Assembly (NCBI GenBank): GCA_902635455.1
Contig: CACPNW010000002.1
Coordinates: forward strand, 48,869 to 112,868
DNA from: an uncultured Alphaproteobacteria bacterium
Lineage (GTDB): Bacteria; Pseudomonadota; Alphaproteobacteria; HIMB59; GCA-002718135
Direction of reading: 5' to 3'
DNA: 64,000 bases
In this document: piece after piece, positions 59,042 through 60,887 of the stretch
Numbering within the stretch: the stretch's first letter is position 1
How the letters are laid out: the number at the start of each line of letters is the position of its first letter
Position numbers and translations under genes: made by a program
Notes under the pieces: model-generated
Databases searched by the model: none
Told to the model about the DNA's origin: nothing
What the model saw: only the letters and a program-made list of their open reading frames with translations

Positions 59042-59091
59042 TCCTTTTAATAAAGTATAGGTTTTTTGGACATTAGTGTTATATTAGAGCA

Positions 59092-59178
59092 GGGAGGTTT
59101 AAGGGCAAATAAATTGCTAATTCAGTCAGGTCTGAAAAGAAGCAGCTGTAACAATCTTGTTTGGGTCTTGAACCTTCC
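59092..59178 (+). ncRNA. ffs: Signal recognition particle RNA (4.5S)
   Basis: The ends form a 12-pair stem (59092-59103 with 59167-59178: GGGAGGTTTAAG and CTTGAACCTTCC, two wobble pairs). The apical part has CAGG-TCT-GAAA-AGA-AGCAG, that is a GAAA tetraloop and the asymmetric loop that binds Ffh. A T-rich stretch follows. It is the short bacterial form lacking the Alu domain. It lies just upstream of dnaX, its classical location in many bacteria. Confidence 0.92.
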
Positions 59179-59189
59179 TTTTATTTAAA

Positions 59190-60887
59190 ATGGATAATAA
59201 AGAATATAAAGTTTTAGCGAGAAAATACAGACCTCAAAAATTTGAAGATCTTATAGGTCAAGAAATTTTAGTTAGTATTTTAAGTAACTCAATTGTTGCT
59301 AAAAGAACTGCCCATTCTTATGTTTTGACTGGTGTCAGGGGTGTTGGAAAAACAACCACAGCTCGCTTAATTGCAATGAGCTTAAATTGTAATGAAAGAC
59401 AAAAAAATAACCCTGAACCATGTGGAGAATGTGATTCATGTTTATCAATAAAAAAAGATAGTAATATTGACGTTATAGAAATGGATGCTGCTAGTAAAAC
59501 CGGGGTAGATGATGTTAGAGAAATTATTGATAATATTAAATACAAGCCAGTAAATAATTCATATAAAATTTTTATAATTGATGAAGTACATATGTTATCG
59601 ACCAATGCCTTTAATGCTCTTTTAAAAACTCTTGAAGAACCTCCTAATCATGTTAAATTTATTTTTGCAACTACTGAAGTAAAAAAAATTCCAATTACAA
59701 TTTTATCTAGATGCCAGCGTTTTGATTTATTAAGAATCGAAAGAGAGGCTCTTACTAATCATCTATTTAAAATTTCAAAGTTAGAAAACATTGATATTGA
59801 TAAGGAGGCAATGGGATTAATTGTTAGAGCTGCTGATGGATCAGTAAGAGATGGATTAAGTTTGCTTGACCAAGCAATGTCTAATCAAAATAATAAAATT
59901 GATACAAAAACTATCAATAGCATGCTCGGTTTAGCTGACAGAAATAAAATTTTTGACTTGTTAGAATTTATATTTCAAGGCAATGCAACAAATGCACTTA
60001 ATGGTTATAAAGATTTATATAACTCAGGTGCAGATATAGTTATGATATTTGATGAAATGCTTAATTCAGTTCATTTCATTACACAAATTAAAATTTATCC
60101 TGATTTAGTAAAAAATATTTATATTCCAGAAATTGAAAGAACAAGAGGTTTAGAAATATCTAAAAAAATTAATATGAATTCATTAGGTTTGATTTGGCAA
60201 GTTTTGTTCAAAGGATATCAAGAACTTCAAGAAGGCTTTCATTTATTTCAACACGGAGAAATGATTATTTTAAGGTTAATTTACATCCATGATGGACCAT
60301 CTCCTGAGGAGTTATTAAGTAAAATAGAGAATAAAAAAAATAATGACACTGATAAAGCAGTAATAGAAAAAGATGCAACAACTAATATTAAAAATAATTC
60401 TACTAAAAGTATCGAGCTAGACAATGAAAAGCTAAGTAAAAATTTGCCGGAAACTTCAGATAAATCGATAATAAATATTAGCTCTTATAGAGAATTTGTT
60501 GACTTATTTTATATTAAAAAAGAGGGTATGATTCATTCTAACCTTTATAATAAAGTAAAACTAATATCTTTTAAAGAAGGTGAGGTAATCTTAAATACAG
60601 ATTCAATAATAGATAAACATTTTAATAGAACTGTAGGGAAAAATATTTCAAAATGGACTGGAAGAATTTGGCAAATTCACTCTTCAAATAGTAATATTGG
60701 TAAATCGTTGTTTGAAGAAGATTTATTAAAACAACAAGAAGAAATAAAAGAAATGCAAAATAATTCTGAGGTAAGACAAATATTAGAAGTTTTTCCAGGT
60801 ACAACTATACATTCTATTTCTGATATAAATGAAATAAATGATGAAAATAAAATTGAAAATATAAATAAAAATAAAAAGGAGTTTTAA
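59190..60887 (+). CDS. dnaX: DNA polymerase III subunits tau/gamma
   Basis: The clamp-loader ATPase, 565 residues. RKYRPQKFEDLIGQE begins domain I; Walker A is GVRGVGKTT (48-56). The zinc ligands Cys67, Cys78, Cys81 and Cys84 follow, then IIDEVHMLS and the SRC motif (ILSRCQRFD). Domain III ends near residue 370; a charged linker and a C-terminal domain (about 430-565) follow. A run of eight A (60333-60340) lies at codons 382-384 and is followed out of frame by TAA, so slippage there would give a 384-residue gamma-like product. ybaB starts on the last base of its stop. Confidence 0.96.
   Translation: MDNKEYKVLARKYRPQKFEDLIGQEILVSILSNSIVAKRTAHSYVLTGVRGVGKTTTARLIAMSLNCNERQKNNPEPCGECDSCLSIKKDSNIDVIEMDAASKTGVDDVREIIDNIKYKPVNNSYKIFIIDEVHMLSTNAFNALLKTLEEPPNHVKFIFATTEVKKIPITILSRCQRFDLLRIEREALTNHLFKISKLENIDIDKEAMGLIVRAADGSVRDGLSLLDQAMSNQNNKIDTKTINSMLGLADRNKIFDLLEFIFQGNATNALNGYKDLYNSGADIVMIFDEMLNSVHFITQIKIYPDLVKNIYIPEIERTRGLEISKKINMNSLGLIWQVLFKGYQELQEGFHLFQHGEMIILRLIYIHDGPSPEELLSKIENKKNNDTDKAVIEKDATTNIKNNSTKSIELDNEKLSKNLPETSDKSIINISSYREFVDLFYIKKEGMIHSNLYNKVKLISFKEGEVILNTDSIIDKHFNRTVGKNISKWTGRIWQIHSSNSNIGKSLFEEDLLKQQEEIKEMQNNSEVRQILEVFPGTTIHSISDINEINDENKIENINKNKKEF

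Follow-up and report, generated by a model that had tools for sequence, protein, structure and literature searches.

A poly-A run beside a stop codon in dnaX of a HIMB59-lineage alphaproteobacterium is probably ordinary, whereas relatives carry candidate recoding sites for the gamma subunit

The stretch of DNA analyzed here (the window; 64,000 nucleotides) belongs to an uncultured alphaproteobacterium of the HIMB59 lineage and contains a dnaX gene, which encodes the tau subunit of DNA polymerase III and is directly preceded by a gene for the small SRP RNA (Table 1). Its downstream neighbors are open reading frames that we take to be ybaB- and recR-like genes. The Pfam domains DNA_pol3_delta2, DNAX_ATPase_lid, DNA_pol3_gamma3 (residues 239-378) and DUF3646 (residues 431-543) are recognized in the predicted DnaX protein. 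Recoding of dnaX is known in Escherichia coli, Thermus and a few other bacteria, and to our knowledge only three routes to the short gamma form are well described: the ribosomal shift of E. coli, the RNA polymerase slippage of Thermus and the action of ClpXP in Caulobacter. The initial annotation of the window had proposed that a run of eight adenosines (A8) in the linker behind domain III is a slippage site placed to make gamma.

Table 1. Features at the dnaX locus (positions within the window).
Feature	Position	Strand	Remarks
Small SRP RNA gene (bacterial)	59090..59183	+	Rfam RF00169, 59 bits; directly 5' of dnaX
dnaX, DNA polymerase III tau, 565 aa	59190..60887	+	Pfam matches
Second A8 in dnaX	59681..59688	+	Within AAA+ domain (TEVKKIP)
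GAGGAG	60306..60311	+	Codons 373-374; proposed Shine-Dalgarno-like stimulator
Lys/Asn-rich linker	60321..60479	+	Variable; domain III to C-terminal tau domain
A8 run in the linker	60333..60340	+	Codons 382-384 (0-frame AAA AAA AAT)
-1 frame TAA	60341..60343	+	Directly 3' of the linker A8

The A8 and the -1 stop codon immediately behind it are exactly as had been annotated, since codons 381-385 read AAT AAA AAA AAT AAT. The run is the only one of at least six adenosines in the linker. The -1 stop lies four residues past Pfam domain III, which ends at residue 378, so that the position assigned to the stop, just after this domain, stands; the accompanying statement that gamma ends there in other bacteria does not hold exactly for E. 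coli, whose gamma continues far beyond domain III and includes domain IV. Other runs of similar length are present in the gene. Besides the A8 in the AAA+ domain, which can be taken as an internal control because slippage there would only destroy DnaX, the gene contains an A7 immediately followed by a -1 stop, as well as an A7 in domain III with stops in both other frames.

As in E. coli dnaX, whose short product is gamma, the -1 stop in the window follows right behind a poly-A slippery stretch. However, the window contains A_AAA_AAT, which in the 0-frame is not the efficient heptamer, and it lacks both a properly spaced Shine-Dalgarno sequence and a stem-loop. The GAGGAG motif is where it had been placed, but its spacing had to be corrected: it ends 23 nt before the heptamer, beyond the usual stimulatory range, which is shorter, and no Shine-Dalgarno sequence is found at about 10 nt upstream of the heptamer in the window. 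Likewise, a downstream stem-loop is unsupported in the 75 nt that were folded (MFE -5.6, z -0.52). With respect to Thermus thermophilus dnaX, in which transcriptional slippage takes place on an A9, the window does possess nearby stops in both other frames (-1 at +0 and +1 at +20 nt), but its run falls short of nine adenosines, is unconserved and belongs to a genome that does not avoid A8.

The initial annotation had itself warned that poly-A runs are common in this genome, and the counts bear this out: we found 348 runs of at least eight adenosines in 328 kb of coding DNA (251 of exactly A8 and 97 longer), which is about one per kb. These genome statistics are based on 373 kb of the window genome (G000; 1.14 Mb, 68% complete) and on uncurated open reading frames of at least 120 aa. 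AAA accounts for 88% of the lysine codons and AAT for 85% of the asparagine codons, and when codon usage was simulated with the protein held fixed and the codon frequencies of the window genome, an A8 arose at the position of the linker run in 77% of the simulations, and an A8 followed by TAA in 66%. Among 54-codon stretches matched for lysine and asparagine content, 33% contain a run of at least A8 and 12% contain one with an immediate -1 stop. Furthermore, an immediate -1 stop is present at 34% of the phase-0 A8 runs of this genome, and about half of its A8 runs have stops in both other frames within 24 nt. The combination of A8 and TAA in the window is thus no more than chance would give, and an A8 beside a stop in a genome of 28% GC is no evidence by itself.

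Compared with synonymous shuffles, A8 is in slight excess in the window genome (1.18-fold), whereas A10 (0.72) and above all runs of A11 or longer (0.17) are depleted. On the reasoning of Baranov et al. (PMC1088944), this lack of avoidance marks A8 as no costly slippage site in this genome. The same distribution, with A7-A8 over-represented and runs of A10-11 or more under-represented, was seen in both G000 and G110, a complete genome of 1.41 Mb from another family of the same order, and it suggests a length threshold for the cost of slippage. Depletion of longer A-runs is slight at most in the coding sample of the B clade, a subclade of the window's genus, where several of these runs come from dnaX itself and partly account for this.

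A search of all 102 genomes of the window's genus, among them GORG-type single-cell genomes such as AG-337-I02, yielded 79 distinct full-length dnaX genes, including that of the window; the others are 60-66% identical. None of these other genes has an A8 at the homologous position, and GAGGAG is present in only one of the 79. The linker A8 is therefore not a site that has been kept in the genus or the clade, which is the outcome that the initial annotation had named as speaking against its proposal. In a dnaX tree built with FastTree, the window gene branches at the base of a clade that comprises L159, the main clade (A) and ten further lineages. As species counts do not represent independent events, we relied on lineage-level and parsimony counts. 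In the 13 lineages of the window's clade, runs of at least A8 occur in five, against 4.4-4.8 expected, a number at the level of chance. Runs of at least A7 that are followed by a -1 stop after no more than 3 nt occur in six of the 13, slightly more than the 3.3 expected under the synonymous null, which takes the protein as given (P 0.01), but not more than under the codon-order null, which ignores phylogeny (P 0.11). The window A8 is located 25 residues after an EM..R motif, and the sites in other lineages 20-25 residues after it. A further candidate, the 'L(E/K)KNLEL' motif of main clade A (50 genes), which has an A7 or A9 and in nearly all genes a -1 stop, was not outstanding and was dismissed because the genes are too similar and wobble changes are low throughout.

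The B clade presents a different picture. Thirteen of the 15 genes shown have a run of A10-A12 within a motif IKKK(N/I/V), and the other two have an A9 (L150) and an A6 (L151); AAA AAA AAA is found in 14 of the 15. Stops close both other frames soon after the run in nearly all of them, within 2 nt in the -1 frame and within 5-7 nt in the +1 frame; in L161, an exception, the -1 stop is at +13. A run of at least A9 with a near -1 stop was present in all nine B-clade lineages tested, against 0.8-4.0 expected. Judged by its sequence, this arrangement is the Thermus pattern: the runs of A10-A12 reach the nine adenosines of the T. thermophilus site, and both other frames are closed, which makes for a close match.

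A constrained site is also found in the sister family (f2). All 36 of its dnaX genes (L180-L215) read GAA AAA AAA AAG (T/C)(C/T)T (G/A)AA at codons 376-381, with an A11 in L215 instead. This A10G site holds the heptamer A_AAA_AAG of E. coli dnaX, in frame 0 in 34 of the 35 distinct genes, with the -1 stop one codon later, again as in E. coli; unlike in E. coli, both stimulators are missing and the heptamer is part of a longer A10 run. The linker is otherwise variable, with a mean of 4.0 changes per conserved codon, but codons 376-380 and 377-381 show a single third-base change each, the two lowest values among 530 five-codon stretches in the 35 genes. Although codons 380 and 381 change their amino acid four and three times, respectively, the pattern NNT (G/A)AA, and hence the -1 stop, is always retained. 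The internal TAA of L189 was rejected as a linker feature: it lies near codon 127 and is probably an assembly error, and the linker of this gene has a normal A10G.

A ribosomal shift on A10G is one possibility. In G110, the complete sister genome, 35 tRNA genes were found, of which 30 could be typed; a single tRNA-Lys (UUU) is among these, and the five untyped ones resemble Leu/Ser or Cys types by size. In the 68%-complete genome of the window, one tRNA-Lys (UUU) was found. A single tRNA-Lys is a condition that a 2016 review ties to ribosomal shifting (PMC5009743). No consistent upstream Shine-Dalgarno sequence or stem-loop was detected at the sister-family and B-clade sites; stem-loop z-scores were significant in L144 and L146, a feature not common to the other genes. 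Slippage by RNA polymerase appears just as possible as a ribosomal shift in the sister family, because the run extends beyond what a heptamer requires and because A10 is scarcer than expected throughout the G110 genome (0.42).

Poly-A runs in the dnaX linker extend to other alphaproteobacteria. Runs of at least A9 are present in 16 of 30 alphaproteobacteria of 30-50% GC, against 0.9 expected under the codon-order null or 5.0 under the synonymous null, and in this group a (I/V)KK(N/K) motif is often found 22 residues after the EM..R motif. The families represented by L277, L279, L280, L283, L298, L330 and L335-L337 (36-49% GC) share (I/V)KK(N/K) with an A9 or A10, at an equal distance after DnaX domain III. 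SAR11 proper shows a mild enrichment of linker A-runs without a fixed place, and no such runs were found in GC-rich alphaproteobacteria. In the linker of L105, an alphaproteobacterium of 37% GC, a C10 lies no more than a few codons behind an A11 (codons 385-395). In the case of L360 (G164), an alphaproteobacterium of 46% GC, frame 0 ends TTA AAA AAA AAG TCT TAA at about position 1274 of the locus, and the reading frame of the tau C-terminal domain carries on in frame -1. Unless this is an assembly error, L360 would have a reversed layout, in which frame 0 encodes gamma and the -1 frame encodes tau, the two meeting at an A9G; a two-ORF dnaX of this kind is known in Chlorobium and other phyla (PMC3711429), whereas dnaX of the window consists of one ORF. 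No phage record matched the window, and dnaX in viral contigs amounted to two short pieces. A search of the open-access literature on alphaproteobacteria, including Pelagibacter and Rickettsia, turned up no published case of dnaX recoding.

What we observed directly is given above: the sequences, how far they are conserved, and the statistics; slippage at the sites of the relatives, its mechanism and the production of gamma are what we infer from them. Our main reading, to which we assign a probability of roughly 0.6, is that the window A8 is ordinary and that relatives have selected recoding sites that make gamma. The A8 would arise from Lys-Lys-Asn codons in a linker that is rich in AT and under little constraint, and slippage on the run would probably be at background level. 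Its use as a gamma site is doubtful because it is shorter than the runs that are avoided, is not conserved and does not end in a G. In the relatives, the run would let RNA polymerase or the ribosome shift frame, after which the nearby stop would end the protein with domains I-III, that is, as gamma. In the sister family, A10G and the fixed -1 stop may work by a -1 shift of the ribosome, by slippage of RNA polymerase or by a combination of the two, and a share of the products would end just past domain III. The B-clade runs, with their stops in both frames, would act via RNA polymerase slippage, as in Thermus. Thus, the initial idea that gamma is made on a linker A-run is, from the sequences, strongly supported for the sister family, the B clade and other alphaproteobacteria, but weakly for the unkept and tolerated A8 for which it was put forward.

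A less likely reading is that the window A8 does function, with RNA polymerase adding an adenosine or the ribosome slipping by -1 to yield a gamma of 384 residues, the site having been relocated within the linker. The adjacent -1 TAA is in the right place, the run is the best candidate of its linker and lies near the positions of the sites in relatives, where selected sites at shifted positions indicate that the function can persist, and the count of A7 or longer runs with a close -1 stop is slightly above the synonymous null; moreover, if gamma is needed, something must produce it. Nevertheless, codon usage alone leads one to expect this run, which is of an unavoided length, has a poor heptamer and no 3' stem-loop, is equaled by the A8 elsewhere in the gene, and is preceded by a GAGGAG that is unique to the window gene and too distant. 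It is similarly tentative that poly-A recoding is a widespread and probably old route to gamma in AT-rich and medium-GC alphaproteobacteria, at a mobile site that varies in length and alternates between a ribosomal-type A10G and a transcriptional-type A9-A12, and of which the window A8 would be a weak but functional form. The A-run might also be irrelevant, with gamma formed by partial proteolysis of tau. In Caulobacter, itself an alphaproteobacterium, ClpXP generates the second DnaX form in this way, post-translationally and without a slippery site (PMC5422525). By analogy such a route is conceivable but improbable here, as a recoding site that the sister family clearly keeps would then be redundant. 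Finally, it is very improbable that A10G is retained solely for an EKKK protein motif, in which case the relatives would lend no support to recoding. KKK is indeed conserved at the protein level, but so are the third bases: AAG is kept in 34 of the 35 genes even though AAA makes up 82% of the lysine codons in G110, and the -1 stop survives amino-acid changes.

Our preferred reading, an ordinary A8 in the window and selected sites in its relatives, places the novelty in the latter: since dnaX recoding itself is known elsewhere, the sites of the relatives would be new instances of it. So far, Caulobacter with its ClpXP has represented the alphaproteobacteria as regards the making of gamma. If our view is correct and abundant alphaproteobacteria of the ocean do have conserved recoding sites, Caulobacter would be the atypical case. 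The sites would then also form a natural series, ranging from A6 to A13, with or without a terminal G and in both ORF layouts, that may inform on the origin and decay of recoding sites.
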